Assembly (NCBI GenBank): GCA_037179385.1
Contig: CM074193.1
Location: forward strand, 38,156,846 to 38,220,845
Direction: 5' to 3'
Source of the DNA: Holothuria scabra
Lineage: Eukaryota > Echinodermata > Holothuroidea > Aspidochirotida > Holothuriidae
DNA length: 64,000 bases
Below are positions 4,430-39,865 of this stretch, piece after piece (the stretch's first letter is position 1; each line of letters starts with the position of its first letter). The translations under genes and the position numbers were made by a program. The notes under the pieces were generated by a model. The model searched no databases. It was not told the DNA's origin and worked only from the letters and a program-made list of their open reading frames with translations.

Positions 4430-4568
4430 AGTGTGTCAGGTGAGTGTCTGTATCTTGCACCGTCGTTGCACCTATCGCCTTACCAAGGTTTGAATACACA
4501 TTAGTATAGTTCAGTTATCTCTTTTCATAATTTCACTTGTTGGACAGTTCGGGAGGTGTTATTTTTGG
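4430..4568 (+). repeat. Left long terminal inverted repeat of Academ-like element 1
   Basis: It matches the reverse complement of 13200-13347 in blocks: TCGTTGCACC, CTTACCAAGGTTTGA, TCACTTGTTGGACA and AGGTGTTA-TTTTTG, in the same order and similar spacing. The arms are clearly diverged, so this is not a recent insertion. Confidence 0.8.
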
Positions 4569-4791
4569 AGTAAACATGAGTTTTATCGGGATTAATTTAA
4601 TCCACCTTCTTAGCTATACAAACGAGAAGGCGCAAGAATCGTAACAATTTGCTCCAATCAGAATACACCGTACAGGTCAAATGATCACCACGTGACATTG
4701 ACGAGGACACAGTCGTGTTAGCAACGGCGTGACGCGTGATCGGTATAATAACGTGACGCAGTTTTTGTGTTCATGCATCGATGTCGGCAAA

Positions 4792-5083
4792 ATGACAAGT
4801 ATCCCGGAAGTTTGCCTGTGTCATACTCGGCTGAAATCGGATGAAAAGTTGAACACATTCACCAAAAAGAGCTGGCAAACATTCACCAACTACGCAAAAT
4901 TATGGGATGAAGTTGGCGTTGGGCGTCTTAGCGAGATCGCAAGAAAAACTAAAACGCATTGGTTGCATGGTATTAAGGGTGCTGGTTACGCGAGATTTAG
5001 GTTTCATCGCTCTTGCTACCAGGATTTTACTAACAAATCCAGCCTAAGAAAGGCTCAAAAGAGAAGCAGAGATAAGAATGAAG
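4792..5083 (+). CDS. Exon 1 of Academ-like gene 1: N-terminal zinc finger
   Basis: This is the first ATG in the open frame, and its upstream in-frame extension has no ATG. It encodes about 97 residues beginning MTSIPEVCLC and ending DKNE. The pattern CLC...H (residues 8-12) and, near residue 78, FHRSCYQDF is typical of a treble-clef-like Cys/His finger. The exon ends at AAG/GTAACT in phase 1. In the second element the corresponding N-terminus (37751 downward) also starts with a short cysteine cluster, though the sequences hardly align. Confidence 0.65.
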
Positions 5084-5189
5084 GTAACTTGACTTTTTAT
5101 TTTGTGACTCACTTACATAGGCCTGCCTGTTTCCCTTGATCACGAAACATAATCCCGGCAGAGTATTTTAGTAGGCTAAAGCTAATCTG

Positions 5190-5600
5190 ACGAGAGTGGA
5201 CTCTAATAAATACTTGGGGGTGACTACTGTCACCAATAATCTCAACTGGGGTAATCACATAAAGTCCGTATGTAATAAACGGAACGAGGTCCTTGGCCTT
5301 CTTACGTAGGAATCTTTCTTTTTGTTTCAAAGAAGTCAAATTGGCAGCCTATAAAGGCTTTCTTAAGCCTTTGACAGAGTATGCTTGTTCCGTTCGGGAT
5401 CAAAATCAGGCGTCACTTCAAGATAAACTAGAGGGAGTACAAAGGAGGTCTGTTCAGTTTAAAGTAAACACGTACTCCCTTGAAGTTGGTTGAATGACTA
5501 CCCTTCTGAAAGATCTTGGCCTCGGCACTTTATCCGATCGGCAAAGGCGTTGTAGGCTTCAAATCCTTGCCATGGTAGCCTATCAACGGTCAGGCTGATA
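5190..5600 (+). pseudogene. Non-LTR retrotransposon remnant, reverse-transcriptase C-terminus
   Basis: In intron 1 of the Academ-like gene, frame translation from 5208 reads KYLGVT, LNWGNHI and VLGLL. After a frameshift near 5295 it reads LRRNLSFC, VKLAAYKGFLKPLTEYAC and LEGVQRRSVQF, then an in-frame stop at 5491, then LLKDLGLGTLSDRQRRCRLQ. This series (YLGV..LSW..HI, LGFLRRNL, AY..LVRPLLEYA, LE.VQRRAARF, LGL..L..RR) is the conserved end of CR1/Jockey-type reverse transcriptases. It is about 130 residues, broken by a frameshift and a stop, and clearly dead. Confidence 0.8.
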
Positions 5601-6536
5601 CCCCTCTGTCTGGCCTTTGTAAACAGTGCATTTCTGTGCGTGCTGTGTAATATGAGCTACTCTCCATCTTTCGAATTTGTCGTTTACTAAAGAGCAATCA
5701 CAAATTGAGAATTTTGGTTCCCCGACCAAGAATGTAGGCCTACATGGGGTGATGAGTGTCTGTCACTACAGTAGGTCATAGAACTAAGTAATACGTCAAA
5801 ATAGGATGGAGGCTGGGCACGGGCATGTTTGCCTGAGTGTTTGACAATAAATCGTGCGTAGAGTCTGAGATGGGCCAACGGTCATTCAAAGATAAGGGAC
5901 TCTGAAATGAGGGTACCTTTTATCTCAAAGGGGTGGTTGCCGTCTGTAAACTCTGCCAACGACCCTTAGTACAGCACCGCAAATTCTGCAAAGGAGAGGG
6001 GGGGGGGGGGGGGTTCTAGATCAGGAACGTGACCATCGTGAATGAAGAAAATGATTGGGCACCAGGCATATAAACACATACGCTGGGTTTTGCCTAGTAT
6101 CCCTCCAGGCATACAAGTTATACTGTCCATTCAAAACTCATGCCAATAGATGGAAATTATCAGCCCTGTTGTAACAATGGAATGAAATAAACACACTATA
6201 GCTCACGAGTTTGTGGTCGGCTTGAACATTGTTAGATAAGAGGGAGAGCAAATTTGCTTGATAGGTTTTCTGAAAACATTTCAAGCATATTATTATTACC
6301 ATTTATTACATCTCCCACCTTAAAAATTTCTCGTTTCATACTGAATATTTAATTGGATTTAACACCAACACTGTTACATTTATATAAGTGGCAAAAATTT
6401 ATGAAATTTTGAGACTTTTTTTTGTTTTTGTTTTTGTTTTGTTGTCTTTTTTTATCGTGGGAAATTCTGTTCAAACGTACAACATTATAGACTGGCATGT
6501 TTACAGCAAACATCACATAATGTTTTCAATTTGCAG
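5601..6536. other. Remainder of intron 1, no gene seen
   Basis: It contains a poly-G tract near 6000-6013 and a T-rich stretch near 6416-6450, which could serve as polypyrimidine context well upstream of the acceptor at 6535. No open frame in it looks coding. Confidence 0.5.
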
Positions 6537-6638
6537 GTGAAGTTTCTGGTGAGCCAGGCCCTAAGAGGCGTCACCGTTCATCAACCTCCCACCAACCAGA
6601 ACGAATCCTTCCACGTGAATGTATCTTCCACTTGGCAG
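6537..6638 (+). CDS. Exon 2 of Academ-like gene 1
   Basis: This 102-nt exon lies between a TTTGCAG acceptor and a GGCAG/GTACCTG donor, in phase 1 at both ends. It encodes GEVSGEPGPKRRHRSS, a basic, probably disordered linker, and then PRECIFHLAG. The last part begins the second finger (C..H), which exon 3 completes. Its 3' end lies inside a 43-bp sequence that is repeated at the start of exon 3 (see 6611-6653). Confidence 0.6.
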
Positions 6639-6653
6639 GTACCTGTAAACTCT
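6611..6653 (+). repeat. 43-bp direct repeat spanning the exon 2 / intron 2 junction
   Basis: 6611-6653 and 7686-7728 match at 39 of 43 positions. Both contain GGCAGGTACC, so the donor of intron 2 and its acceptor are two copies of the same CAG/GT site. The coding sequence reads AGTSKLSGT across the junction. Confidence 0.85.
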
Positions 6654-7713
6654 TTAATTATTTAAAATAGGTAGGACCAGGCCTGTAGCCAGTCAAGGTT
6701 CAAAGGAGGGGGGGGGGGCAAGAACATTTCCCATGGGAATATTTTTCCTAGACGCACCACATATGTGTAAAATGTATTTAGTCAGTGGCAACTTCAAAGT
6801 TTGCATATGGGTGGGAGGTTCAAGATGGGCTTTGTCCCCCCCCCCCCGACTAAGGGCTTGGGTAGGATAAGGTAGCATTGTTTGATTCAACCAAGTGACA
6901 TCACTGTTCACTGTACCAGGTAAGAACAGCAAGTGATGTGAATTTTGTACTGTCATTTTGACGAGTGACCAATGACCAGGTGTAATGGCTGAGAAACTCT
7001 TTGAGATGGTCGGTGTATTAGGCGATATGTCGAAGTCATTATTATTACCGTTATCAATGGGAAGGGGGAAAATCAATGTAGAATTTTGCCGACCTGCGGG
7101 ATGGGTCTAAGGGGAGTCGTGTTCCTCTTCCCTTTGAATAGTTTTCCTTTTTTTAATGAGACTAGATGCAAAATGGTGTGATATCTACCGTTTTTGACAG
7201 AAGATGTTTTGAAGGGTGCGTTTTCGTAGTTTATAGAGATAATTTTTTTCCTCCTCCAGGACAATATCTTTTAGGGGGCGTGCCGCTCGTGGCTTTGTTC
7301 ATGTTATGAATTACTGCTCTGTTAGATTTTCACTGGCAGGCACGAGATACTTCCTCTTTTTAGAGGATTTACTCATTTTTGTTTTAACTTTCCCTCTTAT
7401 TTTTTTTTTATTTATTCCCCCCTTTTCCAAAGATCTGAAAAAAATCTGTCATAATTTTTTTTTTTTTATAAATCTCGGCTATTAAACTTGTACGAACAGC
7501 CCTTGAAGTTCTATCCAATCGGAATTCTGTATTATAACGACAGCAATGCCACTAAAGGCCTTTAAGCGGGCCCATGGACCCTCGGATGAGAGAGCGTAAG
7601 GCTTCACCGTGCACCATTGATTGTCTTACAAATTATTTCCTCTTTTTAGGAGTTACCAGTCACTTGCCTGGGTTTTTAAAACTTACCACGTAAATTTATC
7701 TTCCATTTGGCAG
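6639..7713. other. Intron 2 of Academ-like gene 1, 1,075 bp
   Basis: It is bounded by duplicated CAG/GT sites. Inside are short G-rich (6701-6718) and C-rich (6837-6847) runs about 120 bp apart, possibly the ends of a small degenerate element (see the repeated phrase 'gcctgtagccag' at 6681). Frames here are shadows; no gene. Confidence 0.55.
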
Positions 7714-8411
7714 GTACCAGTAAACTCTCTGGCACCACTGGTCTCAAGTTCTTCAAAAGTAAATCATCTGGGAGTAGACAACAAGAACGACTATCACAGT
7801 GTGTGACTGTGGAAGCTGAGAGGAAGCTCAAAGCTGCAGCTGCAGATCTAAATGACGAGAATTTACTCATTCATATCGGGGATAAGGACTTGATTGCAAT
7901 TGAGGTGAGGTATCATAAGTCATGCTATTCTGCTTACATGGCAAGTTGTGAATCTTCTTTATTACATAGCAACAAACCATCACCAACGTATCAAGACGCT
8001 TTCAATATTATTGCTCAGGAGGTTGAGCAAAAAGTTATACTGCATGGTGAAGTTGTAAAAATGACTAAATTGAAAGAAAGGTTCATTCAACTAATACAAG
8101 CAGAAGGTGGTGACATTTCCAACGTTAGGGCAGAAAAGTTGAAAAAGCGTTTGATTGGGAAATTTGGGAAGAATATTGCATTTTGGCGTCCTAGACAGAG
8201 AACCAAATGTGAACTTGTGTTTTCTGAATGTGTTCCGAAAGGCATTCTTCTTGGGACATCTGTGGAATCTGGCAGCTCCCAAAGTGAAATGTCTGCTGAC
8301 AGTGATGTTGACACTCCGTACTTATCTTATGAGATTAATGAAACAAAAGAATTGTATCATGCAGCACAGTTATTAAGGGACCAGCGACCTATTGAATCAG
8401 GAAAATGTTGA
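7714..8411 (+). CDS. Exon 3, 5' part of Academ-like gene 1: finger and linker
   Basis: Open frame from the acceptor at 7713. It encodes GTSKLSGTTG, a cysteine (QCVT), an alpha-helical stretch AERKLKAAAADL, then IEVRYHKSCYSAYM. C...C...YHKSCY is the recognisable second finger of this protein family. A linker follows (KKRLIGKFG, then serine/acid-rich). The frame ends at a TGA at 8409, in a place where the family continues. The next frame, open from 8377, carries the rest, so a single-base shift lies between 8377 and 8411. Confidence 0.7.
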
Positions 8412-11400
8412 CAAATTAATCCCTTGCCGACTTCACAATTTTCTTGCACTATTGATTGCCCCATCTCTTGCTGAAGTGAGTTTTACCAGCAATACAAGGA
8501 TAGAGTTGCCACTAGATCTGATGGTGCGTTTAAGGTCTATTGCTCAGGACATAGTTTTTGCATACTCTCGAGGTAGAGTCGTTACGCCAAAACATGTATC
8601 CCTTGGTGTCAGTATTCGTCATTTGACAAACAATGTTCAAGTTTTCACCCTGATGAATAAATTCGGACATTCTGTTTCGCACACATATCTGCAGGAACTT
8701 GACACAGCAATTGCAAAACAGGTTGTCAAGAAAGAAGCTGTGCTACCACCAAATATCAACCCATGTCAATTTACAACAGCCGTGTGGGACAATATTGATT
8801 TATCAGAGGAAACATTATCAGGTAAGGGCACAACCCATAATACGAATGGTGTTCTAGTGCAGAGATATTGTTCGAATGAGTCACAGACTTCACCAAAACC
8901 TTCAAAACGCACAGGAGAAAGATCTTTCAAAGCAAAACAAAATCTATCCACTCACTATTTTCAGACCAAAAGAGTAGGACCAGGGTCCTTTCAGATCAAT
9001 ACTGAATTACTCAAAGAAGACAAATCAGTACAAAAGTATGCTGAGAAGGAAGATTTTCTCTGGGTGCTTCTAAGATCACCTCCAACTAGCACTGTACCAG
9101 ACAGTATACAGGTAGTGCCTGGATGGTCAGGATTCAATTCTTCGCAAAGAAAAAGTACACCAGAAATCAGTTCAGTTGGCTACTTACCAGTCATACCATC
9201 AAGCCCAACCGAGATGTCAACTGTACATGCATTATTGGAGAGAACAATGGAAATTTGTTCTAAGCTGCAACAACAGGAAGTTGTAATTGTTCTTGACCAA
9301 GCCATATATAGCAAGGCTCTTCAAATATTATGGCATGAGAAGGAAAAATTCAATAAAATTGTCCTCAGGCTTGGAGCATTCCAAACAACATGTGTCATGC
9401 TGGGAGTTATTGGTAAAAGATTTGAAGACACGGGATTAGAAGACGTACTGATTGAGTCAGGGGTTCTAGCATCTGATTCAGTGAAGGGTATTATGTCAGG
9501 TAAACATTACAATCGCTCAACAAGGATATTCAGAATTGTGTATGAGGCACTTCATCGTCTACGGTGGAATGCATTTCTGGAGACTACTAGAACAACTGAT
9601 CCGGGTTTAGTAAATGAAGTTACATCACTACTTCAAGCCAAAAGAGAAAATCAATCTGATGCATACGAACTACTCACTAACAGTGATATGGAAGAGTTTC
9701 TAGCAAAATATGATGAATTTTTACGCATTAATCAATCGCCGATGTTTCAGTTCTGGTCCTCAGTTTTGGAAATGATGCAGTGTGTTCTCAATTTCATCAA
9801 AGCAACGAGAACTGGAAACTTTGAATTGCATCTCGCTTCTATTCGATCAATGTTGCCGTGGATGTTCGCATATGACAGAACTAATTATATGCGGTACTGC
9901 ACTGTTTACTGGCTTGACATGGTGACATTACCTGAAACACATCCCTTAATCAGTGAAAAGTTACAAAGTGGAGAATTTGTGGTGCAGCGCTCGAAGTTTA
10001 ATACATTTGGTCAAATTGCATGTGATATGGCAATTGAACAAACGTTCAACAAAGACACAAAGTCTGCGGGAGGAATTGTTGGCTTCAGTTTGAACCATGG
10101 CGCTGTTGAGAGATGGACACTCTCTTGTCCAGAAAGGGCTTCAACCGTGGCTGCATGCAGGGACCTGTCAGGAGTGAATGAAAGCTGCTCATGGCTTCAC
10201 AAAGACCAAAGTTGTTTGCATCGTGATGAGAGCGACGTGGTCAAAGTTGCAGAAACATTCATGGGGTTTGTTAATCCATTCTCTGCAGAGTGTGACCAGC
10301 TCATTCACTTATCTGAAGGGTTTGTTCCTCCCACAGATGTTCTCAGGGATTTGCTTGATGCAAAATTGAATGGTGAAGACGCCTTTCTGTCATTTGTCAA
10401 TGAAAGATTGTTATCCGACCAGGTAGAATTCTTTGCACCCATTAAACTCTTAAAATCAAAAACTTTCAAGAATATCAAAAGAGTTGTCAAAATCTCACCT
10501 ACTCTAAGCATCCAAGAAGATCGGAGTTTGTTTGGTTCAATATTGGTAGTCAATAATAAGCTCAATCGACAAATAGAGCTAGAGGAACTCTTCAAGTACA
10601 CTCTTGGTACTTATCCTTACTCCTTTGCAACTACCACTGGATGCCTTGTCAAAACAAGCAAGGCAAAACTACTGCATCTGCTGGAGGAAGGCCATGTTCC
10701 AGCAGAACTGGACAGTATTAAACCGAAAACCTCAGCAAGGATATTTGATGGGATGGCTGTCCTGCAACAACTAGTCAACTCTCACGCAAATACATTCGGT
10801 CAGTTTGCCAGCCAGGTTCTTAACGTAATGCTAACTGTAACAAGAATGACAAGTTGTAGGAGGATAGACTTTGTCCCAGATAGGTACTTTTATACCAGTA
10901 TCAAAGGAGCTGAAAGAGACAAAAGGGGCAAATCGGGTGACATCCGTGTGAAAATTGTATCTTCTCAACAGAAGAAGACCCTGCAGTGGAAGAAGTTTCT
11001 TTCAAATAATGAAAACAAAAGTGAAATTGTTGAGTTCTTTTTCCGAGAATGGCAGAACCAAGAATATGCTTCAAGGTTGCAAGGAATATCACTTTTTATT
11101 GGGCATAGTGACAAATGCCATTGCCTTTCTAGTGATGGTTCAGAGATAATATCTACAGAAGTGAATGAATTGTACTCTACCCAGGAAGAAGCTGATACAA
11201 GGATGTTTTTGCATGCCGCCAGTGCTGCCCTGGAGTGTGAAGCTGTGGTCATCCGTAGCCCTGACACTGATGTTGCAGTCTTGGGTATAGCTCATAGTCA
11301 TGCTATCCCAGCTACATTGTATCTAAACACTGGAACCAAGAACAGCCGAAGAATAATTGATTTGGGGGAGATTGCAGAGTCCCTTGGCCATGAAAAAGCA

Positions 11401-12027
11401 AATGCCTTAATCGGCTATCATGCATTTACCGGCTGCGATTCGGTGAGTTCTTTTTATGGGAAGGGAAAAAGCAAAAGCTTTTCATTGTTCATGAAAGACA
11501 ACGAAACAGTTGCGACAATGTCTCTGCTTGGATCAGCTCAAAGTGTCAACGATTTACTAATGAACTCATGTGAGACGTTTGTGTGTAGGTTGTATGGATC
11601 ACAAACTGAAACAAAAGTTAATAAACTTCGCCATGAACTTTTCACAAAAACAAGATGTAAGAGTGGAAACCTACCTCCTAACCATGATGCATTGATTCAC
11701 CATGTGAAACGTGCCAATTATCAGGCATATGTGTGGAGCAATGCCCTTAAGCAACGACCTGATGTAGGTTCTCCAGTTGGGCATGGCTGGAAAATGGATG
11801 GGGAAAACCTTGCCATCGAGTGGATGACTTTACCTCCAGCCCCCAAAGCAATACTGAAGCTAATGAGTTGCAGATGTAAGAAGGACTGCTCAACACGAAA
11901 CTGCCAATGCCGCAAAAACTCCTTGCATTGTACTGAAGCCTGCCGATGTAACCAATGTACCAACCAGGGAGATGAAGGAGAGATCAGTGACGATGATGGG
12001 GACAGTGACGAGGAGGAGGATGTATAA
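8377..12027 (+). CDS. Exon 3, main part: DDE-like core, PIN/XPG-like nuclease, CXC domain
   Basis: This continues the gene after the frameshift; the numbering here starts at 8392. It has no start codon of its own. A DDE-like triad can be proposed: D133 in VWDNID, D302 in VIVLDQA and E549 in AIEQTFNK, matched by DNID, GDCKTY and AHEMGINK in the paralogue at 32534. After about residue 820 comes a PIN/XPG-like module: VPDRYFYTSIKGAERDKRG (827-845), EEADTR (932-937), SPDTDV (956-961) and TGCDSVSSFYGKGK (1013 on). These match the order of acidic motifs and the GCDY/helix-2-turn-helix signature of FEN1/XPG nucleases. The C-terminus (1160-1192) is a CXC domain, CRCKKDC...CQC...CRC, ending in an acidic tail. 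The paralogue has G-E-W-H after its second Asp; here the site reads LGAFQT, with Q where I expect H. Likely nuclear. Confidence 0.75.
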   Translation, partial: GTSDLLNQENVDKLIPCRLHNFLALLIAPSLAEVSFTSNTRIELPLDLMVRLRSIAQDIVFAYSRGRVVTPKHVSLGVSIRHLTNNVQVFTLMNKFGHSVSHTYLQELDTAIAKQVVKKEAVLPPNINPCQFTTAVWDNIDLSEETLSGKGTTHNTNGVLVQRYCSNESQTSPKPSKRTGERSFKAKQNLSTHYFQTKRVGPGSFQINTELLKEDKSVQKYAEKEDFLWVLLRSPPTSTVPDSIQVVPGWSGFNSSQRKSTPEISSVGYLPVIPSSPTEMSTVHALLERTMEICSKLQQQEVVIVLDQAIYSKALQILWHEKEKFNKIVLRLGAFQTTCVMLGVIGKRFEDTGLEDVLIESGVLASDSVKGIMSGKHYNRSTRIFRIVYEALHRLRWNAFLETTRTTDPGLVNEVTSLLQAKRENQSDAYELLTNSDMEEFLAKYDEFLRINQSPMFQFWSSVLEMMQCVLNFIKATRTGNFELHLASIRSMLPWMFAYDRTNYMRYCTVYWLDMVTLPETHPLISEKLQSGEFVVQRSKFNTFGQIACDMAIEQTFNKDTKSAGGIVGFSLNHGAVERWTLSCPERASTVAACRDLSGVNESCSWLHKDQSCLHRDESDVVKVAETFMGFVNPFSAECDQLIHLSEGFVPPTDVLRDLLDAKLNGEDAFLSFVNERLLSDQVEFFAPIKLLKSKTFKNIKRVVKISPTLSIQEDRSLFGSILVVNNKLNRQIELEELFKYTLGTYPYSFATTTGCLVKTSKAKLLHLLEEGHVPAELDSIKPKTSARIFDGMAVLQQLVNSHANTFGQFASQVLNVMLTVTRMTSCRRIDFVPDRYFYTSIKGAERDKRGKSGDIRVKIVSSQQKKTLQWKKFLSNNENKSEIVEFFFREWQNQEYASRLQGISLFIGHSDKCHCLSSDGSEIISTEVNELYSTQEEADTRMFLHAASAALECEAVVIRSPDTDVAVLGIAHSHAIPATLYLNTGTKNSRRIIDLGEIAESLGHEKANALIGYHAFTGCDSVSSFYGKGKSKSFSLFMKDNETVATMSLLGSAQSVNDLLMNSCETFVCRLYGSQTETKVNKLRHELFTKTRCKSGNLPPNHDALIHHVKRANYQAYVWSNALKQRPDVGSPVGHGWKMDGENLAIEWMTLPPAPKAILKLMSCRCKKDCSTRNCQCRKNSLHCTEACRCNQCTNQGDEGEISDDDGDSDEEEDV

Positions 12028-12546
12028 GTTACACCAGTGTAGACCAGTTCAAGTCATCATTATCAATGCTGGTTGGACAGAGGAGGGATACATGTGGCCA
12101 AACATCAGGAACAAAATGTTAGAGGTTAGTGTAAAAGGGTGCTTTGATACACCCTGAGGCCAAAAAATTTAAATGCATTTTAATTTGTAGCTGCAAATTT
12201 GTTGCAGTTACTCTTCAAGGTTTGTTCACAAAAATAGGTTATATTGGAATCATTTTGGAAAATGCAACACATTGTTGTTCAGGGTGTCAGTTGAAACCAT
12301 CGACAAACAATGATTCCCATTCTTGACGTGATATGCCTATCAGGGATATAAAAATTTTTCTTTGAATTTTATTTCATATCTTATTTACTGCTTCTATGAA
12401 TTCTGAAATTGATATGGCATGAGAACAGAGAACATTGGGAATGTGGGCATATCTTCCATTGCCGAATTTTAAGTTAAAAGAAAAATCTTCATGATTGGCG
12501 GGAAGAGATTGGCTTATAAAACTACCATAGAAAGTGCGCCCTCATT
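12028..12546. other. 3' region of Academ-like gene 1, no further gene
   Basis: It follows the stop codon. Short open frames at 12144-12326 are not conserved-looking. A candidate poly(A) signal AATAAA occurs only downstream of the nested MITE, near 12910. Confidence 0.45.
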
Positions 12547-12827
12547 CATGGGCGTCCGCAGAAAAAAGTCAGGGGGGCAAAATTTCTAGGGAGGGGCAAA
12601 ACCTCCAAGTTACCATGAAATGACACAAAGCATGCGAAAATTTCAGCCCAAAATGCCTCCCAGATTGCCGGAAATGGCATTTCTAAAGCCTATTTTTCGC
12701 ATAGAAACTTGTAAAACAAGTTTTGTTCGGGTTTTTGCTTTGATTTTTATACGTTTTTTTTCAAATTTTTGATTTTCCAGGGGGGGGGGGCAAGTGCCCC
12801 CCTCGCCCATACCTGCGGACGCCCATG
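12547..12827 (+). mobile_element. hAT-type MITE, 281 bp, 8-bp duplication
   Basis: Terminal inverted repeats CATGGGCGTCCGCAG (12547) and CTGCGGACGCCCATG (ending 12827) are perfect over 15 bp. They are flanked by CCCTCATT on both sides (12539-12546 and 12828-12835). An 8-bp target duplication is typical of hAT elements. No coding capacity; C- and G-runs lie near the right end. It is nested in Academ-like element 1. Confidence 0.88.
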
Positions 12828-13199
12828 CCCTCATTTTGCGCCTATGGCACGTGACCTTTCTGCTGCTATGATTAACCGCCTCACTTTGGTCAGTGGTATA
12901 TCCTCATGAAATAAAATTGTAGTTACTCTTCATGTTTTACTAGCCTACTAAATAGGGGCCCTGGGTCCCCCACTCTGCGCCCACTTTAACCCCAGCCCCA
13001 CCCCATCTGACCTCCATCCGTTCACCCAGAGCACAAAAAAGTGTAGTTTCCCCAACTTTGTGTACCTAAGACTTAATCTAGTGTAAAGTTGTAGGTTTTG
13101 GGAGGTATATTAGTCTGTGTATGTACATTAAGTTACACAAAGTATCTTTTGGATTTCTTCCGTGCGGTAAGTTATGACGTCACAAAAGTGCTGTTAATT
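12828..13199. other. Between nested MITE and right terminal repeat, nothing coding
   Basis: It contains an AATAAA near 12910 that could end the transcript, and a C-rich stretch at 12960-13030. No gene seen. Confidence 0.5.
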
Positions 13200-13347
13200 C
13201 AAAAAGTAACACCTGTCATATTGTCCAACAAGTGAAAAAATGTTGCTGAGGTATCCCTCTATCATACCCACCTATCAAACCTTGGTAAGCAAAAGGTGCA
13301 ACGAAGGTCGATTTTTAGGGCCTTTTCTAACATACCCCTGATGGACT
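13200..13347 (-). repeat. Right long terminal inverted repeat of Academ-like element 1
   Basis: Reverse-complement partner of 4430-4568, ending CCTGATGGACT. It is followed by the AAT target duplication and then the resumed satellite (aagactccttcac). Confidence 0.8.
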
Positions 13348-13901: not shown

Positions 13902-13934
13902 CCCAGTACGCAACAAGCTGGCGGTCCGCCAGCG
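13902..13934 (+). repeat. Left terminal inverted repeat of EnSpm element
   Basis: Begins CCCAGTACGCAACAAGCTGG and pairs with 24873-24905 (26 of 33 identical). Related GC-rich motifs recur to about 14230, for example ggctggcggaccgcc at 14191. Confidence 0.85.
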
Positions 13935-24905: not shown

Positions 24906-24931
24906 ATATTGCTTAATGATACAGACCTTAA

Positions 24932-25763: not shown

Positions 25764-25770
25764 AGGTAAA
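25764..25770 (+). mobile_element. piggyBac-like MITE copy 3, left stub split by Academ-like 2
   Basis: Only AGGTAAA of the MITE precedes the larger insertion. The rest resumes at 39866 with the duplicated TAAA. Confidence 0.75.
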
Positions 25771-25787
25771 CAGTCGAACGTCTGACC
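25771..25787 (+). repeat. Left terminal inverted repeat of Academ-like 2
   Basis: CAGTCGAACGTCTGACC, an exact mirror of 39849-39865. Confidence 0.93.
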
Positions 25788-29600: not shown

Positions 29601-31630
29601 ATGTAAATGGACGGACTAAATAATGCATGAAAATAACAAAAATAAACATCTCTGGGCATATTTATATATAAGATATTTAAATTATGAAAAAACATATGTG
29701 GCAGGAATTATGGTATACATAAGCTACCCATGTACCTCTTTTGGTAACTCAAGTTACACCTTTGTTTGGCAGTTTGTACTCAAGAACTGACAGCTCACCA
29801 TAATACAGAATCACCTAGCATTGGGCAGCACTTCTGTCGGTTACTGCTAATACCACAGCATGTGGACTTTTTTTTATTTGAATAACGTGTTTATATTTAC
29901 TAAGTCACAGCCCACCATATGAAATGGGAATCAAAAATGAATGAATTTCAAACCAATGCTAGACCAGAGAATGCCGTGAGTGTTAACTTACACAAATACC
30001 TGATATGAGAAAGAACTCAAAGGAAAGAGCAGACAGTACAAACACACAAGTTGCACAAAGAAATAAAAAGGAAAATGATATACTTTTCTGTTTTTTGCAA
30101 TTAAAACTATTCTGATTGATTTTAGTGTAGTCATGCACATCTCAATGAAATATTTGTCCCACTTGCATTGATTGAAAAATGGAACTACTGTGAAACTTCA
30201 TGCAATAATGCTAGGGACATTTGAATGCAATCACATGCACAGGTACCATTTTCATGCACAGTTTTCAAGTTTCAACTGAACTGAACACGTTTAAAGCAGG
30301 ATATTAACTACCTGCGGGAGGCAAGTCGTGGGGATTAGCAGCCCATGCTGACCATAAGTTGTTTGTAATTCTGTAAAACTGAAACTTGGCAATCATGGGT
30401 AGGTCTCTTCTAACACTTTTGCAATGTGAATTTGGGATTCTGAATGCCAAATCAGTAAAAGAGTACAAGACAAAATTTTCCCCAATGTCACTGACCTAAA
30501 ATCTTCAAACAGGACCTGAATGTAGTTTCCCTAAACTACTAATGTCAAACCACATTTGGCAGTTACAAGAATACAATTTGGTCTGAAACCCCTTTTTAAA
30601 ATTACCCGAATATTACTCCTTGCAAACTTTTTGCCTCAAACTTTCGAAAGCAAACTATGAGTGACCATGTAATGATAATTTGAGCATGTTCCAAATGCAG
30701 CAATTTCAAATCTGTTCTAAAATATTAATTTTGTTGCAGCAAGATGTCTGCTCATGCCATGCTTTGAAAAAGGAATACTGAAGCATCAACAAGAATAATA
30801 TCAGTTGCTGTTGTATTGCTGAGAATTTTGTTTTGAATTTGACAATGGTGGTGCCCATATTGAGGAATGACAAAGTTTGTATCTAAGTTTCAAAACATAG
30901 TGGACAGACAATATTTACATAGAGACTTCCTGTGGCTTGTTGCAAGGGTCCCATGGGAAAGAAATAAAAAAACTCCAGTTCATTACCTCCAAACCAAGTA
31001 GCAATACTTTCCACCTAACTCAAGACATCTAACATGAAATCCCCAAAACTTACCTGGTTTTGGAATCTATGAGCCCTACTCACCTCACCTTTTACTACTA
31101 TTGAACTGAAATAGATAACTACCTATTTGAACTGAAATAGACAACTACCTATTTTTGTCAAAAAATACATCCAGTTTCAATCAAGGTCACAGAATATTAT
31201 GTAAAAAGGGCACATTGCCTCAGATTTTGTTTGAATTTCTTTATAATTGAATGTCCTGTTTGTCCTTGGAATTTGATTCTTTTGGAATGTTTAAGTATCT
31301 TTCTATGTATGTGTAGATATAGCACAAATCTACACCATATTTACAGCATAGCAAACAAGGCTGCTATGTATCCCCTACAGTGATTCTAATATCATAAAGA
31401 AATTCAATGCTTAATCAAATTAGTGTGCTGCTAAGACATCATTGATTTCCCATAATGCACTGCATCTTCAGAAAAAATTGCAATTCTTTGAAAATTAGTA
31501 TCTTCCAAATGATACAAGCTAATGAGATGCAGTTTACATCTCTTAGAAGAGAAAAATCTTCTGCATTTCTTAAGCCATTAGTTTTTTGTAACTGGCAAAT
31601 CCCCTAAGTATCATGTTTTCTAACAACAAC
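29601..31630. other. Academ-like 2, downstream of gene, no gene seen
   Basis: AT-rich unique-looking DNA. A 29-bp phrase gaactgaaatagata/caactacctatt is repeated twice near 31110-31155. Nothing else recognised. Confidence 0.5.
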
Positions 31631-31934
31631 CAGTGGCATAACCAGAGGGGTGGCAAGGGGGTCTGGAGCTGCCCCATCGCTTGTCCCCTTAAAAAATTGT
31701 GGGAAAAGTTTGAAAAAGACAAAAATAAAGAATCATTAACATGAACTCACATGGCAGATAGCCTGATAAGTGCCATTTCCAGCAATCTGAGAGGCATTTT
31801 TATCCAAAAGTTTTCTCAGTGTGCTACATGCCAACCAACAATGGTGCTCCACTTGTCATTATTGCTTGTCCCCTCTACTTTAACCTCTACCCCCTTCAGC
31901 CCCTCTAAATAAAAAAAGTCTGGTTACACCATTG
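31631..31934. mobile_element. Degenerate MITE with CAGTGGYRTAACCAGA ends
   Basis: Left CAGTGGCATAACCAGA and right TCTGGTTACACCATTG form an inverted repeat 304 bp apart, with G-rich and C-rich subterminal runs. It is similar to other fragments in the window with CAGTGGCGTAGC at the edge (61873, 62177). No clear target duplication. Confidence 0.6.
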
Positions 31935-32412
31935 AAAAAGACAAGACATGGCAAGGACCGATTTACAAGATAATACCTGGTGGCTAGGGACAGAAAGGGA
32001 ACTAACTTTTTTCTGTTTTAAAAATTAACTTGAAACAAAAAACACACCCTTAATATTTTTCATGGAGCTAGAAAGGAAACATATGGCGTCACTTCCCCCT
32101 TTTACTTCCTACCCTGGTAATAGCTATAGTCAAAGCCCGACTGCAGTTTATACTCACACTTCTCACGATATGCCATGTAATTATAGATGTAGTTACTGAC
32201 ATATCATGATGGCAACATTGTCCAGGTAGTGCAGTCACAATACAGAACATTCCATACATGAGTGCACAGTTGAGCAATGGCAACCTGCAGAATGGAACAT
32301 TTGTCCAGTAGCTGTGTAAAGAAAGAAAACAAGAAAGAAATTTGAGCTTAAAGGTAGTACACAAGATAATAAAATTCGTGGAACATTGGGCACATGTCCC
32401 ATACTGAAACTA

Positions 32413-32418
32413 TTTATT
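32413..32418 (-). promoter_or_regulatory. Candidate poly(A) signal of Academ-like gene 2
   Basis: AATAAA on the minus strand, 116 nt past the stop codon at 32534, in a suitable place for 3' end formation. Confidence 0.5.
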
Positions 32419-32533
32419 GTTTCAAAAATTGTTATATGTAACCTTCAGACAACATCCTGAAGCAATTGTTTGGTAAAGGATATTTTGACATTTTGTTAGT
32501 GAAAAAAATGCCAAAAGTTATAGTTCTATAATA

Positions 32534-35500
32534 TTACTCTGTACTAGTGTCATATTCAAGGTCATATGCGTCAGACTGTAAACCATCACTATCTGAATCT
32601 GTTCCAGAACTAGATTCTACATGTGTAGTGTATGGTCCAGAGCGGTCTAGAAGATCGTGTGTGCTATCAGAGTCCCAGCTACTGTCTGAGTCTTCTGTTT
32701 CAATACCCTCAATGAGACCTGTTTGACACTGTGCATTATTCTCACAATTGCAACAACAGCACGATGGACCACATGTGATGTTAGACTTGACGCACTTGCA
32801 TCGTTTTGTGGAACAACCTTTCTTACATTTACAACCAACTTTCAAAAACTGAGTGCTCTCTGCAATTCTAGACAAATTTTCAGGTGTATCCCAAATTGCC
32901 TTCAAACCAGTTTCATTCTTTTCCCAACCATAAGATGTAACATCGGGAACTACAACATCACTCGAGCATGCTTGAGCCCATAACTGAAATGTCCAACAAC
33001 AACGGAGCCAATGAAAATTAAGCCATGATGCAGATGGCATCCAATGGGCTTCGTCATTAATTCTGTGAAAATGTCCTTCTCGTATTTTCGATACAAAGGC
33101 AACATGATGGTCTTCTGTGCTCATATCTGGAAGGAGTACAGAATGAAAGACTTCCTCTGGGCTATCTTCTGTAAACCCTCCGGCATGTGCATGGAAGTAC
33201 ACACACCCAATAAGTCTATAGAACGCATACAACCCATCAGAAAAACTTTCAGAGTCACCCATGCTTAGAAGTCCTTGGTGAAGTCCACCAGTAATAAACT
33301 TTGCACTGCGAAAGAAGGCCTTAAGAAATGACAATTTGGACTGTCCTTTGAAAAAAGACACATAATCACAACCACTACAAATAAAAATCATTTGCAAAAA
33401 TGTTGGAGCCAAAGGAAGATACACCCCAAGTACCTGAAGGTCGAAATCTTGTAATAATGATGAACAAAGTGCATTCATTGAAACAAATAGATCATTATGA
33501 AACTGTTTCCTAAGTTGGACATATACATGCTTACCTCTAAAGTGTGTGTTCATGAGGGGTAGGCCAATATGAAAGGTATCACGGTCTGGACTATAAATGA
33601 TAACAGTTGTACAAGGGGTCTCAACTGCATGAAACCAAACTCGAGAATCCCCTTCCTCATGATTTGATGACAAAGAGGGTACAAAAGATACCACGCCATC
33701 ACATATTTGACGTGCTTTATCTATTGAATCACCATCAAACCCACCAGCTGTGACTAGTCTCCCTGGGCAGTATTCAACAGACTTTGCTATGTCAATAATC
33801 TCATAGCATAAATATGTGACAAGCAAACGTTTATTTGACCGGTTGGAGATAAAACGTGTCCAATTTGAAGGCTTATGTGTGGTTGAGCAAACAGAAGTAT
33901 AAGTATCATCAAACTCACATGAATTTCTACCAGCTACATAGTCTCTCCTCTGTCGTTCTATGTCTTTAGGTAAAGTTCCATGACGACCAGGATGATCAAA
34001 TACTATATGTATTTCTGATGCCTTTAAAAACCTCATGGCATACACAACCCACTGCTTATATAGAAAAAAGGCATAGTCGCCAAATGTCTTATGACAGTCG
34101 AGTGGCCTGGTCAAATTTATCATGAACATACCTTCCATTATTACACAAATACTGTTTCCTTGATTTATGTGATCAGGTTTCTCAAGGAAAGCCTCAGGAT
34201 ACCTCTTTTGCAGGAACGTGGCTGCAACTGCCTTTGCTCCTTTGTTGGGAATACCATCAAAGTCACAAATGGCTCGAGGAAGTGGAATAAACTGACTCAG
34301 TGAAGAAACAGCAGAGTTGTTACTCTTAGACCAAGCAACCTGCTTTCTAAGGCAGGCAATTTGAAGCTTGTGATCCTTGAGTTCCTGCTGTTTCTTCACC
34401 TGTGTCCTCTTCTTTTCACCAAAGGTATGAAAGTTTCGTCTCTTGCGTACCACTTTGGTGGATCTGTCACCAAGGATAAAACTACGCACATATGAAAGAA
34501 AGTCATCTTCTCCTGTTGAATAGAAGGAGGTAAGGTCATCAGTAACAAGAGGGCTGGCTACCTTTTCATCAAACAAATGACGTAAGAAAACACAGTCACT
34601 GACTTCAAATGCACATGATTCTGAAAGTTTTTCGATGTAGCAACGTATGTTTGTTTCTACCAAAGTGTGGTGAGCTGCATCAAGATCTGTGTGCGGTTGT
34701 TTATTTCTTAATTGCCTTATCATATTACAGTTTATTTGAGACCTGTAAGGAAGATAATGTACAAGGCGATTTAGACCTTCTGGGTCAGTGCCATTCATTG
34801 CCATTTTAACCTCCTTGTTAATGCCCATCTCATGGGCTTCGTCCAGTGCAAGGCACTGGTTATCAAGTCCTGTCATGCTGACAGCAAATGCCTCAGCCTG
34901 CAGCTTACTTAAAACACTTGTGGGGGAACTCCTTAATGTAGCAATATGGATTGGGACAACTCGTAAATAGTTAGATCGGTACAAAGCATGAAAAATGGGA
35001 CATAACTGTCTAACACATGCTCCCCTTAAACTAAAATCCCTTGACCTTATTGAAATGTAAAGTCCCGCATAGTACAACATGTTCCTTGTACAGAAGTCTG
35101 ACCAAAACTTAAAGTTACAATCTGATGTGCTGCGATAATTTATGAACTCCTGAAACCTTTCAAAAATAACTGGCACAAATTTTGAAAGTGGGCTGTCAAA
35201 TAAAGATGGGAGTATCCTGTTCTTGTTTTTGTCAAACTCAGTTTGCAATTTTGGGAGAAAGTCAACACCAATTCTTGATGCATCTGATATGAAAATTTGT
35301 ATGAGATGTCTGTACAGTGCTTCCCATGCTTGCATAATAAAGCGGTGGGTTTTTTTAAAACCACTTGCACATGACACAGCCTTCATTGTAGCTCCTTTAT
35401 GAAACAAAGAAAGTAATGTTTTCAGACCAGCATCTGAGTATAACTTTAAGAGCGGAGGTTGAGCATTTTTGAGAAGATGCCACTCTCCTAGATATGGAAT

Positions 35501-37606
35501 GACCCAGGAAAGCTCATCTCCATATAACCTCTTCAAATTCCAAATGATGTCATAGGTTTTGCAGTCTCCTGCCACAACCAGATGTTCTATTTCCTTGCCT
35601 ACCTGATGTTTCTCATGGAGGATGTCAAGAACATTGAGCATGGTTTGTTGGCTTTCTGCTGGCTCTGGTAAAACAGAAATAAAGTGGTTATTGGACTGTT
35701 CTGCAGGACAGTCTGGATTTGACAGACATGTCTTAAGGTCAGGTAGTATACACTGTGAGTCCTTGGAATACACAAACTGCTTAACAAGCATGTATAGGAA
35801 GACCTTCTCTTGAAACGAAGAGAGGGAAAATGTTTCCTCATCTGTGAGTGAAAAGTGTGTGATAGATAAATTAGAGATGGGATTAAGAGAAAAGGCTTGT
35901 GGCATGAGAGAAGTAGTCAATACTGCTGTTCCTTGGTATGATGCTAAGTCTTCAGGGGTCAAGTTACCAGTCACTGCCACCCTCCTCTGCTGAGAGCTGT
36001 CGGTATTCTGATCAATACTCGACGTAGATATCTGTTGGGATGTTGAAACAGGCAATGGTTCAACAGACTGGACTGATGTTCCATGAAAACCTCGTGCATC
36101 TTGACCAACTTTGACAGAGGCATACGAGGTACTTCTGTCAATGTTGTCAACAGAAGCCACACAAAAACTACTGGACAATGTAACATGCTTCTTCTTCATT
36201 TCTTCCATTGAAATCTTTGTCTGGAAGCGCAAAAATGTACTTTTAGAGACAGTTACCCCAAACTTCGAAAGATAGTCAAAACACAAAGTAGAAGATGATG
36301 TAAATCTATCCACAATGTCTGCAATAAGCATATGAACATGAGTAAAACAAGAATCATTTGTGGCATACAGAAGACTACAAGCAATGAAGAACCGCTTTAA
36401 AAATTTGGAATGGCTAACTGAATCTGAAGGATGTGTGTTTGGAAGCAAATGCTCATGCCAATTAAAGTCCCTTGCAAAGAAGTCAGATGAAAATTCAGAG
36501 GGTCCTAGGGTACATGCTACAATGAAGTTCCAAACAACCGGAGGAAGTCTTTTAACTTCTGAATAAAAGTCAACAGTATCTAGATTGTAAGATGAGGCCT
36601 TATCAGAAGCAATGATCTCTTTGGCTGACGTAGTCAAATGATAATTAATATCCCTTGAAATACAAGAAAGTGATACAGAATCAAGTTTAGAAGATGACAT
36701 AGATGAAGTTTCTGGTTGCTGTGTAGTATTACATGAATCCTGATGCTGTTCAAATAACATTAGGTGAAGAGCTGTGCATAAATCCGTTCCCCACCTCCTG
36801 ATCATTGTTCCATATCTGGATTTGTTGGGAATGGTAGAGATTATAATACATTCACCAATTGCCGATCTCACAGAGCACAGGAAAGAATGCAGAGATCTGG
36901 TCAAAGGGACAATAGGAGGGTCTGCCTCTGTATATGAGCTTGGGTTTAGTTTTTTACAGTATAAGTTATGTGCAGATTGTATCAAAATAACTCGGTCATT
37001 AAGAAGTTCATCACCAATGTACAAAAGTGTGTCAGCAAATGCAAAGTCACTGGCACTACTATTATCAAGAGTTACATCCCTAAACGGCTGTAACAGGGAT
37101 GAAAAATATGTTTTGTTGCCTCGATTTGCTTCAGCAAACTTTTCACCCTTGCTGTACCTATTTATTGATGTGTAGCAGACATTACATAATTCAAAAGATT
37201 CAGCATCAGTCATATCATGCTTCTGCAAAACAGCAACAGCAAAACTACGTGCAGCCTCAACATTTTTTAACTGTTTGAGGGTTGACTGAGGAGAACCACA
37301 CATGGAACAATTCTTTGTAAATGACTGACGGTACAAAGTACAGTAGTGCTTATGACATAAAGTTGTAATGATAGATGCAGGTGTAGAAGATGAACTACAG
37401 ATGTCAAGACCAAATCTTGTTAATACTTCCTGTGGGAAAGATAATAAATTGGTCTCATGTACCCTATGGTCATTGGTACATCCTTCAACAGCACATTCTT
37501 TGGCCAATGCCCGTTTGACCCCTTTCTGATTGTCTGCAACATCACTCTTTTTTGGAGTATTTCTTTTGACATGCCTGACAAATGCAGTCATCATCACTAC
37601 ATCCAA
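32534..37606 (-). CDS. Academ-like transposase gene 2: DDE-like core, PIN/XPG-like nuclease, CXC domain
   Basis: A single open frame of 1,690 codons without introns; numbering here starts at 37606. The first about 20 residues are probably out of frame (see 37542-37751). N-terminal cysteine pairs: CAVEGC (38-43), CHKHYC, CSMCG and CNVCY. DDE-like triad: D487 in SVDNIDRS, D681 in GDCKTYD followed by LGEWHLL, and E926 in AHEMGINKEVK. PIN/XPG-like module: DCHKTFGDY and IVFDHPGRHG (about 1205), EEGDSR (1317-1322), SPDRD (1339-1343) and GCDYVSFFKGQSK (1412 on). These parallel the FEN1/XPG N-region, I-region acidic residues and GCDY motif. CXC domain 1592-1625 (CKCKKGC...CKC...CCCCNC), then a Ser/Asp-rich tail. 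It is colinear with gene 1 but very divergent. Alternatives: a domesticated nuclease, unlikely inside a precise TIR/TSD element. Confidence 0.78.
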   Translation of the reverse strand: MDVVMMTAFVRHVKRNTPKKSDVADNQKGVKRALAKECAVEGCTNDHRVHETNLLSFPQEVLTRFGLDICSSSSTPASIITTLCHKHYCTLYRQSFTKNCSMCGSPQSTLKQLKNVEAARSFAVAVLQKHDMTDAESFELCNVCYTSINRYSKGEKFAEANRGNKTYFSSLLQPFRDVTLDNSSASDFAFADTLLYIGDELLNDRVILIQSAHNLYCKKLNPSSYTEADPPIVPLTRSLHSFLCSVRSAIGECIIISTIPNKSRYGTMIRRWGTDLCTALHLMLFEQHQDSCNTTQQPETSSMSSSKLDSVSLSCISRDINYHLTTSAKEIIASDKASSYNLDTVDFYSEVKRLPPVVWNFIVACTLGPSEFSSDFFARDFNWHEHLLPNTHPSDSVSHSKFLKRFFIACSLLYATNDSCFTHVHMLIADIVDRFTSSSTLCFDYLSKFGVTVSKSTFLRFQTKISMEEMKKKHVTLSSSFCVASVDNIDRSTSYASVKVGQDARGFHGTSVQSVEPLPVSTSQQISTSSIDQNTDSSQQRRVAVTGNLTPEDLASYQGTAVLTTSLMPQAFSLNPISNLSITHFSLTDEETFSLSSFQEKVFLYMLVKQFVYSKDSQCILPDLKTCLSNPDCPAEQSNNHFISVLPEPAESQQTMLNVLDILHEKHQVGKEIEHLVVAGDCKTYDIIWNLKRLYGDELSWVIPYLGEWHLLKNAQPPLLKLYSDAGLKTLLSLFHKGATMKAVSCASGFKKTHRFIMQAWEALYRHLIQIFISDASRIGVDFLPKLQTEFDKNKNRILPSLFDSPLSKFVPVIFERFQEFINYRSTSDCNFKFWSDFCTRNMLYYAGLYISIRSRDFSLRGACVRQLCPIFHALYRSNYLRVVPIHIATLRSSPTSVLSKLQAEAFAVSMTGLDNQCLALDEAHEMGINKEVKMAMNGTDPEGLNRLVHYLPYRSQINCNMIRQLRNKQPHTDLDAAHHTLVETNIRCYIEKLSESCAFEVSDCVFLRHLFDEKVASPLVTDDLTSFYSTGEDDFLSYVRSFILGDRSTKVVRKRRNFHTFGEKKRTQVKKQQELKDHKLQIACLRKQVAWSKSNNSAVSSLSQFIPLPRAICDFDGIPNKGAKAVAATFLQKRYPEAFLEKPDHINQGNSICVIMEGMFMINLTRPLDCHKTFGDYAFFLYKQWVVYAMRFLKASEIHIVFDHPGRHGTLPKDIERQRRDYVAGRNSCEFDDTYTSVCSTTHKPSNWTRFISNRSNKRLLVTYLCYEIIDIAKSVEYCPGRLVTAGGFDGDSIDKARQICDGVVSFVPSLSSNHEEGDSRVWFHAVETPCTTVIIYSPDRDTFHIGLPLMNTHFRGKHVYVQLRKQFHNDLFVSMNALCSSLLQDFDLQVLGVYLPLAPTFLQMIFICSGCDYVSFFKGQSKLSFLKAFFRSAKFITGGLHQGLLSMGDSESFSDGLYAFYRLIGCVYFHAHAGGFTEDSPEEVFHSVLLPDMSTEDHHVAFVSKIREGHFHRINDEAHWMPSASWLNFHWLRCCWTFQLWAQACSSDVVVPDVTSYGWEKNETGLKAIWDTPENLSRIAESTQFLKVGCKCKKGCSTKRCKCVKSNITCGPSCCCCNCENNAQCQTGLIEGIETEDSDSSWDSDSTHDLLDRSGPYTTHVESSSGTDSDSDGLQSDAYDLEYDTSTE

Positions 37607-37751
37607 GAGCCCGCAAGTTGGACACAGTCTGATCTTTGGGAGATGTGGCCTGGCCTATATGCCAGTACCGTCCTTTTTCTTTAAGACATACTTTGCATGG
37701 TCCACCACTCCTTTGTGGGTGTAAACGTTCACATGAATTTTTTGCAGGCAT
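37542..37751 (-). CDS. N-terminal segment of Academ-like gene 2, different frame
   Basis: ATG at 37751 (MPAKNSCERLHPQRSGG) opens a frame with CKVCLKEKGRYWH and GCSDDDCICQACQKKYSK, two CxxC-type pairs that look like a real zinc-binding N-terminus. It reaches a stop at 37542. The long frame takes over one base out of register within an A6 run near 37550-37556. The real start of the protein is therefore here, and the ATG at 37606 is an artefact. Confidence 0.65.
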   Translation of the reverse strand: MPAKNSCERLHPQRSGGPCKVCLKEKGRYWHIGQATSPKDQTVSNLRALGCSDDDCICQACQKKYSKKE

Positions 37752-39848
37752 ATTCCCAAATACTTCTGTATAACAACTGTGATTGCTTGGTACCACCAAA
37801 ATGTCAGAGACAAATGAACTGATTAAAATAGCAAATACTAAATGCATTTGATAAAATAATAAGACAGACATACCGTGAAACACCCTTTTCTACAGTTGAA
37901 TTGTGATGTGTGATGCCAAAATGAACTGAGCCACAGATACAGTGGGAGTATGTTTGTAGCCAGGCTATATTTGTGTGCAGCTACTGCAGCCTTAAAAATG
38001 TTTTAAACTCAACCTCTTGAACATTGTTCACAATAACAGGTACTGGATGCAGCAGCTGCAGTATCTAAATATTCGGTTTATTTCAGTACTTGCACTGTAG
38101 GACAGTTGTGTGGTTACTATCCGAATGCTACTTCCGCTATTTCCAAAATCCTAGATCTAGCCTAGGGCAGCTGTGAAAAAAAAAATACTAGGGCCTAGAC
38201 CCTAGGCCATCAACTGCTACAGGTAGGCTTACCATATCTGTGTTGTGCAGTACACCAAGCAATGAACCTGTAACATTAACGTTACTATAGTTTATTACAT
38301 AAGTACTAGTGTCTGGGAGGGGGCTGGGTATTAGGCCTATTATGAATACCTAGAGCTACTAACACTATACATGGGCATTATCTGCAGTGGCCATCTTTCA
38401 CAGCACATTTAGATGACCAATTTATTATTCCTTTTGACCCCAAATTGGTAACTGTTACTTTCAAGTAGGCCTAATGTAGCTACTGTAGTTAGCCTATAGG
38501 CCTAATCAAAAGCAATATGGGCTGTTACTGTAAATTTAACAACTCCGAAGATCCGACTTCTGGCTCAATGAAAATCGGTCAGTAACACTAGTACAGCAAT
38601 AAATGCGATTAAGGTGCTAAGCGAGCACATAATTGTTTATTCGATTCACCCATTTTTGAACGTGTAGCGTGGTACCACACTGTGTAGGCCAGGCCTAGAC
38701 CTATTACTATTCACTACGTTTTGATACACTCGCTATACCTACTGTAACGCAACGGGCCTACACTACAGCTAAGTAGTACTAAGTTAACGTGCTAAATGCT
38801 GGTCCCGCACGTGAACTCACGTTAGGCTATCACTGGAATGCAGTCGTCTTAACGAACCCGGAGGGCAACTTTGGTGCCCCAAAAAACTCCTTTAATAGAG
38901 GTGTACCGACGTAAAATCGATACATATGAAGGAATAATATATACAGCTCATAAAAATATTACTTTAACAGTACAACGATTCAAGAGACGAAAGATTCACA
39001 AAACGATTTCGAGCAAGTGTTTTTGCTTACCTTCATTCCAATCGGTGCTCACTCCGAGGCCAATTCTACTATAGCGTGTTCGATTACTCGCCCGAGTTAA
39101 CTCGTGTCTGGCGCGACGACGTTCGATTAGCTAATGACGTCAGTATTCGCGCTTACTCGCGCCAGGCCCAAGTGAGCGACCCTTCGAGTCGGTTACTTAG
39201 GTAAGTATCCCATCGTGCTTTGGGAAAACATGGCAGCTGAAACAAACAACATGCATTCGTGAACAATTTCTGAGCATGTAAATACAGTGGGGTAAACATG
39301 AAACTTCTGACTTGTGAAAAGTGGTTGATGTCGGAATTAGTGAAGTCACTCAAGTGTTATTTCTCGAGAATTTTCCAAATGAGCATTGTTTCGAGTCTAC
39401 GTTGATCGTACAAGTGAACCGCACGTATGCGTACGTACCAGAGTTCGCTCTGCCACGCAGCTACGGGCTCTGTCATTGGCTATTGTGAACCAACTTCTCC
39501 AATAATTACCGTAAAACGTTCGTTTATTTCACCCAACTGCGCATGACCATCGTAGCCCTAGCTCGAGGCTCGAGTAAGTCAAGGGAAGCAAATCGAACAC
39601 GCTACTAGTTTCGTCGCCTATGGCCGTACTTTTCCGGAAATTTTCGCTTTTCCGACCAATAATATATTCTTTTATAAATCTAAATCAGTTCGGAAGCAAG
39701 AGCTGCAGATATGAATATACAGTGGGCCGAGAAATTCCTTCTTGGGTGTTCGGGTGAAGGAACGTCGTGAAACAGGAAATACCCGAATGGAGCACTTCCG
39801 GGTTAAACTCGGATGCTTAAAGATTGCGAAATAACGGTAGAATGTAGA
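37752..39848. other. 5' region of Academ-like gene 2, no gene
   Basis: Expected to hold the promoter. The sequence shows many ctaggcc / taggcctac words (38150-38770) and a CpG-rich stretch around 39050-39180 and 39400-39470. No second gene is visible. Confidence 0.5.
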
Positions 39849-39865
39849 GGTCAGACGTTCGACTG
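39849..39865 (-). repeat. Right terminal inverted repeat of Academ-like 2
   Basis: GGTCAGACGTTCGACTG, an exact mirror of 25771-25787, then TAAA. Confidence 0.93.

Follow-up and report, generated by a model that had tools for sequence, protein, structure and literature searches.

Two divergent transposons of Holothuria scabra, most likely of the AcademX group, whose transposases are predicted to combine DDE and flap-type nuclease domains

Two transposons lying within 64,000 nucleotides of the sea cucumber Holothuria scabra (contig CM074193.1; this whole stretch of DNA is hereafter the window) each seem to encode one large polypeptide in which a cut-and-paste transposase is joined to a complete nuclease of the type that removes DNA flaps during repair. 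The two elements, E1 and E2, have unrelated ends, and each holds one long open reading frame (ORF), encoding the proteins P1 and P2, respectively. The explanation that we favor, with reasonable but by no means full confidence, is that E1 and E2 are divergent members of a single transposon superfamily, which is most likely Academ (AcademX lineage), and that each would encode a single chain joining a DDE transposase to a nuclease that processes the 5′ strand.

A shared protein family and its predicted domains

The original prediction of one long gene per element was borne out, and the ORFs and their domains are as follows (positions are those of the window, residues those of the protein).

8377..12027, plus strand: E1 long ORF (P1), stop to stop, 1216 amino acids (aa), with DDE-like, EXO1/FEN1-like nuclease and CXC parts
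8776..10062, plus strand: P1 DDE-like domain, residues 134-562 (acidic residues D138/D141, D307 and E554, the last two separated by a helical insertion)
10657..11778, plus strand: P1 EXO1/FEN1/XPG-like nuclease domain, residues 761-1134 (D791, D835, E937, E938, D940, D963, D965, D1021)
11869..11958, plus strand: P1 CXC (Tesmin/LIN54-like) cysteine cluster, residues 1165-1194, from its pattern and a LIN54 profile match (E 6.1e-4)
32534..37654, minus strand: E2 long ORF (P2), 1706 aa
34799..36160, minus strand: P2 DDE-like domain, residues 499-952 (D503/D506, D697, E942)
32939..34237, minus strand: P2 EXO1/FEN1/XPG-like nuclease domain, residues 1140-1572 (E1174, D1220, E1333, E1334, D1336, D1357, D1359, D1430)
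32744..32833, minus strand: P2 CXC (LIN54-like) cysteine cluster, residues 1608-1637, from its pattern and a LIN54 profile match (E 1.5e-5)

Because a BLASTP alignment of P1 with P2 extends over ~1,100 residues at 22% identity (E 9e-27), the two are placed by their sequences in two branches of one family, despite the unrelated element ends, and the same match rules out unrelated proteins that had converged. The two products had been said to share order but little sequence; the order stands, and the similarity had been understated. Two protein searches at E <= 0.001 found 23 relatives among 4,976 candidates and 211 among 7,986, respectively, which rules out chance or artefact; the best 120 of the 211 are listed, and they overlap the first set (P0023 at least). 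Among the matches listed, the named hosts include echinoderms, hemichordates, tunicates, Branchiostoma, a hagfish, a fish, cnidarians, a sponge and a bivalve (Pinctada, P0137), and the sea cucumbers Holothuria leucospilota and Apostichopus japonicus provide relatives at 57% to P2 and 60% to P1, respectively. A search for relatives with a helicase in the place of the nuclease, made with P2 residues 495-960, the DDE part, returned 9 proteins, two of them new (P0143 and P0144). No helicase domain was found in the proteins scanned with Pfam (P1, P2 and selected relatives), and one relative, P0017, possesses an OTU-like cysteine protease domain (residues 604-768) upstream of its DUF6589 match. By eye, P0009 of Branchiostoma has a stretch resembling this OTU domain, which Pfam does not report there. 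A viral origin was also considered and rejected: a scan of viral_contigs with one of the structure-modeling alignments (A3, below) matched 39 stretches, none of which was confirmed by tblastn, and PHROGs gave 0 families for P1 and P2.

Conservation was read from an alignment, A1, of 122 rows, made up of P1, P2 and 120 of the 142 returned proteins, the other 22 having been omitted by eye as short or partial. Its rows are merely 17-63% identical to P1, and the motifs named in the original prediction are present in the order given there, with residues near-invariant beyond chance. The nuclease positions are D835 (118/119), E937 (116/119), E938 (119/119), D940 (121/121), D963 (117/119), D965 (119/119) and D1021 of the GCD motif (117/117), while position 791 is D or E in 118/120; the basic residues K843 (118/119), R850 (118/118) and K881 (118/118) are similarly kept. 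The DDE set comprises D307 (122/122), E554 (121/122), D138 (115/116) and D141 (114/117), so that the three conserved D, D, E of DDE transposases are found throughout the family. All twelve acidic positions, eight from the nuclease and the rest from the DDE set, are retained in 103 of the 122 rows; in nine rows, at least one of these positions is occupied by a non-acidic residue (in seven of the nine within the nuclease set), and the remaining ten show gaps or, in a single case, E in place of D. The nuclease domain has the full set of predicted acidic metal ligands, and both predicted active sites are widely maintained, since their residues are near-invariant across diverse hosts. It is conceivable that the nuclease fold is a non-catalytic remnant kept for DNA binding, and the non-acidic residues in 7/122 rows would suit such a role; this is nevertheless very improbable, given that rows so divergent from P1 hardly vary at the eight acidic positions, the Lys and Arg residues and GCD.

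The acidic pair plus GCDY had been read as matching FEN1/XPG nucleases, and two structure models agree, with a FEN1/XPG-superfamily (PIN) nuclease fold that lies clearly over the named residues and spans residues ~2-312 of human EXO1. The models are partly dependent, as alignment A2 (37 rows) includes 14 E1-type rows (P1, P0023 and 12 others), while A3 (53 rows), also used for modeling, includes 5 E2-type proteins. Equivalence to EXO1 residues is by alignment at the VFD and GCD positions and by motif order for the other ligands. Structure and conservation together thus turn the XPG-type motif noted for Academ into a specific, testable map of the domains and of the residues of each predicted active site.

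For the DDE part, the strand and helix order of both models, together with the places of D, D and E, fits an RNase-H fold, which this order and the invariant residues support, and the part is probably a DDE domain in both proteins. Pfam has a match to DUF6589 in P2 residues 600-953 (30.7 bits against a cut-off of 27), which suggests that DUF6589 covers a portion of a DDE transposase domain; the same family falls slightly under the cut-off in the sea urchin relative P0028, and the Pfam scan of P1 gave no significant match. The helical insertion has a near-invariant Trp (121/122 rows), and this insertion, together with the GxxH motif, is reminiscent of hAT/RAG-type transposases. As for the CXC cluster, which probably serves DNA binding, Pfam TCR (CXC) has no match in P1 or P2 themselves and is above its cut-off in P0028; the pattern occurs in 57 of 144 retrieved proteins, and the others may be truncated or may vary in it. 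The original reading of DDE, nuclease and CXC in one chain is therefore upheld for the nuclease by the models and for CXC by the LIN54 profile, and is probable for DDE.

Ends, duplications and coding pieces of the two insertions

Satellite DNA with a unit of ~577 bp, in both orientations, makes up much of the window, and mobile elements have inserted into the array; both E1 (which has satellite on both sides) and E2 sit inside it. Uninterrupted satellite copies provide the reference for the boundaries.

25771..39865, minus strand: E2 whole insertion, from perfect inverted ends and uninterrupted satellite copies
25771..25787, plus strand: E2 left terminal inverted repeat, 17 bp
39849..39865, minus strand: E2 right terminal inverted repeat, 17 bp
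25767..25770, unstranded: E2 left target-site duplication TAAA, against uninterrupted satellite
39866..39869, unstranded: E2 right target-site duplication TAAA, against uninterrupted satellite
37551..37751, minus strand: E2 N-terminal coding stretch, which has paired CxxC motifs and matches P0001 at 55% identity by tblastn
4430..13347, plus strand: E1 whole insertion, from imperfect inverted ends; tips AGTGTGTCAGG... and ...CCTGATGGACT
4427..4429, unstranded: E1 left probable target-site duplication AAT, preceded by two extra A relative to uninterrupted satellite copies
13348..13350, unstranded: E1 right probable target-site duplication AAT, from flank comparison with satellite copies
4813..5061, plus strand: E1 N-terminal coding stretch (tblastn, matching residues 4-83 of the Apostichopus relative P0025)
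7683..8378, plus strand: E1 second coding stretch, in frame +3 (from tblastn matches to P0024 and P0025)

The extent of E2 and its TAAA duplication follow from the filled site, GGTAAA/CAGTCG...CGACTG/TAAAGAGC (slashes at the junctions), set against three satellite copies in the window that are uninterrupted at this site, GGTAAAGAGC at ~1272, 24937 and 52152 (minus). The arms at 25770-25787 and 39849-39866 are 100% complementary, an 18-bp match consisting of the 17-bp repeat and one base per side. At the E1 site, nine uninterrupted copies read TTGCAATAAG (four), TTGCAGTAAG (four) or TTGAAATAAG (one), while the left flank of E1 is TTGCAAAAT, with two additional A; the AAT duplication is thus probable and, with this two-base discrepancy on the left, not clean. 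The original claim of 3-4 bp duplications is accordingly clear for E2 and probable for E1. The E1 ends form an imperfect inverted repeat of ~127 bp that starts 30-40 bp inward from the tips (its local score is 60, against at most 24 in 200 shuffles), and the tips proper share AGT...TCAGG, as judged by eye. That the two elements differ in their terminal repeats was confirmed, as four cross comparisons of their ends gave scores of 16-25, where shuffled sequence reached maxima of 24-29, and a single comparison equalled its maximum; in this set of alignments the E2 left end was taken from 3 bp inside the element, so that the E2 repeat aligns over 14 bp there.

Both long ORFs are preceded by N-terminal coding sequence in another frame. 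In E1, the reading frame shifts straight into the long ORF at ~8370, and in E2 the N-terminal stretch is off-frame relative to the long ORF, with a break at ~37555; the protein would start at 37751, the coordinate given originally, which agrees with the tblastn stretch in its different frame. The last N-terminal piece overlaps the long ORF in both elements, and there is therefore no space for an ordinary intron there. The frame changes at ~8370 and ~37555 may reflect decayed copies, assembly errors or frameshift sites. At 6539-6652 of E1, upstream of the second coding stretch, lies another stretch resembling the beginning of that piece, perhaps an internal duplication. Finally, residue 336 of P1 (9382-9384) is Q within the GxxH motif, where 121 of the 122 A1 rows have H and P1 is the sole exception, and this may be a further hint of a degraded E1 copy.

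Superfamily assignment and the possible role of the nuclease

The nuclease of AcademX elements is of the XPG type. According to the available part of PMC10045372, AcademX makes 3-4-bp and AcademH 9-10-bp duplications, and these lengths are linked to the encoded nuclease and helicase, respectively; E1 and E2 have both AcademX traits, namely a 3-4-bp duplication (TAAA, and probably AAT) and a predicted nuclease domain. They are most likely two new families of AcademX. Moreover, in Kolobok elements, too, an accessory enzyme, either a nuclease or a helicase, accompanies the DDE transposase (PMC9587614, in its available part), and, given this and the AcademX fit (PMC10045372), the union of a DDE transposase with a flap-type nuclease is of a known kind. 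The novelty originally suggested for it is not supported, as the AcademX nuclease and the 3-4-bp duplications of AcademX already appear in PMC10045372. A literature search turned up no paper devoted to the Academ nuclease, and the term "AcademX" in PMC10045372 only; the nuclease is mentioned there and not in the available portions of PMC9587614, PMC12730594, PMC10799480, PMC10294476, PMC4298943 and PMC9004415.

P1 and P2 could conceivably represent instead an undescribed superfamily of DDE elements, distinct from Academ, that acquired its EXO1-like nuclease in a separate event. The only Pfam name for the DDE part of P2 is DUF6589, which is absent from the literature searched, and Academ is, in the available text of PMC10294476, almost confined to bivalves among molluscs, while echinoderms and further hosts outside the molluscs account for most of the named relatives in the present searches; the latter point is weak because that study covers molluscs and a few outgroups. 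We consider this improbable, since the nuclease and the 3-4-bp duplications agree with AcademX (PMC10045372) and a bivalve, Pinctada, also has a relative.

Several points weigh against the Academ reading and the two-site protein that it implies. Membership, as judged here, rests on duplication length and nuclease rather than on Academ sequences. No solved transposase matched P1 or P2 by sequence or profile (a PDB sequence search with P2 alone gave 0 matches), and Foldseek matches of the DDE part within the longer models are weak, with Hermes at E 0.25 (probability 0.30) and RAG1 at E 1.1 (probability 0.05); the structure-prediction check that had been proposed hence yielded a PIN/XPG fold, with the RNase-H fold resting on strand and helix order. 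The predicted template modeling scores of 0.62-0.64 leave the relative placement of the domains uncertain. In addition, both copies may be inactive, because of Q336 in E1 and the N-terminal frame break in both.

Under the Academ reading, one transposase chain would begin with a region rich in cysteines, followed by a DDE domain that holds a large helical insertion, then by a 5′ nuclease of the EXO1/FEN1 type and, at the C terminus, by the CXC cluster, which probably binds DNA. The DDE site would cut the 3′ ends of the transposon and join them with a stagger of 3-4 bp, and the nuclease site would attend to the other strand, where it would either cut the 5′ (non-transferred) strand itself or, with greater likelihood, trim 5′ flaps. 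DDE strand transfer leaves short gaps flanked by transposon 5′ ends, in some systems with a 5′ flap of a few nucleotides, and a flap nuclease built into the transposase would clean those ends beside the gaps once integration has taken place, whereas other elements depend on the host for this step. Tentatively, and with less confidence than the Academ reading itself, we suggest that the single chain performs both strand reactions through two unrelated metal-nuclease sites, by a non-transferred-strand cut or by 5′ flap removal, and is independent of host flap repair, with the AcademH helicase replacing this module along with a different duplication length.

Within this explanation, the nuclease could make the second-strand cut at excision, the DDE site taking the transferred and the FEN-type site the non-transferred strand, with no hairpin. 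TnsA and TnsB of Tn7 have a comparable division of labor between two strand cuts. Such a role is unlikely: the substrates of FEN1/EXO1-type enzymes are nicks, gaps, 5′ ends and flaps, so that a DDE cut would have to come first, and the helical insertion with its near-invariant Trp resembles that of hairpin-forming, hAT/RAG-type transposases. A hairpin route to the second strand is plausible because of this insertion and GxxH, and it would make a role after integration, or in the opening of hairpins, more likely than direct cleavage of the second strand. On the other side stand the strong conservation of both acidic sites, each of them complete and carried by the same chain, and the tie between Academ duplication length and encoded nuclease or helicase (PMC10045372, available part).

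Another role, to which we give little probability, is that the nuclease acts on the ends at the donor site, opening or resecting hairpins or 5′ ends, and so steers donor repair, being dispensable for insertion. Its fold and motifs are nearest to EXO1, a 5′ resection enzyme, but such a step would by itself bring no advantage to the transposon.

Other contents of the window and comparison with known systems

Elsewhere in the window, the 577-bp satellite lies in opposite orientations on the two sides (1-4286 and 50299-52144), with long arms 93-96% complementary, and tandem repeats occur at 24491-24789 (unit ~55 bp) and 57176-57943 (unit ~52 bp). A 411-aa ORF at 48018-49253 matches DUF3504 (E 5.6e-16), with weak tyrosine-recombinase similarity, and is perhaps a Crypton-type element, while a 718-aa ORF at 17976-20132 has weak similarity to DUF4218, under the curated cut-off, and is perhaps another DNA transposon.

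Among known systems, AcademX resembles E1 and E2 in being a DDE transposon with an encoded nuclease and duplications of 3-4 bp, a likeness of description rather than of sequence, whereas AcademH, of the same superfamily, has a helicase for the nuclease and 9-10-bp duplications (PMC10045372, available part). KolobokE, KolobokD, KolobokP and KolobokH likewise have a nuclease or helicase beside the DDE transposase, downstream of it in KolobokE and KolobokH, but their nucleases differ in fold (lambda exonuclease-like, DEDDh and His-Me) and their duplications are 4-bp TTAA (PMC9587614, available part). EXO1, FEN1, XPG and GEN1 share with P1 and P2 the nuclease fold and the ExD, DxD and GCD motifs, after which comes a GxGK-like stretch; in the solved enzymes, however, the matched domain begins at residues 1-3, whereas in P1 and P2 it lies behind the transposase domain, hundreds of residues in. 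The CXC of LIN54 and Tesmin is similar in cysteine pattern and by profile match, although two stretches match in the LIN54 chain and P1 and P2 have one cluster, at the end of the transposase. Finally, should processing of the 5′ strand prove to be the task of the nuclease, these elements would represent a eukaryotic counterpart, within a single chain, of two-enzyme transposition such as that of Tn7.
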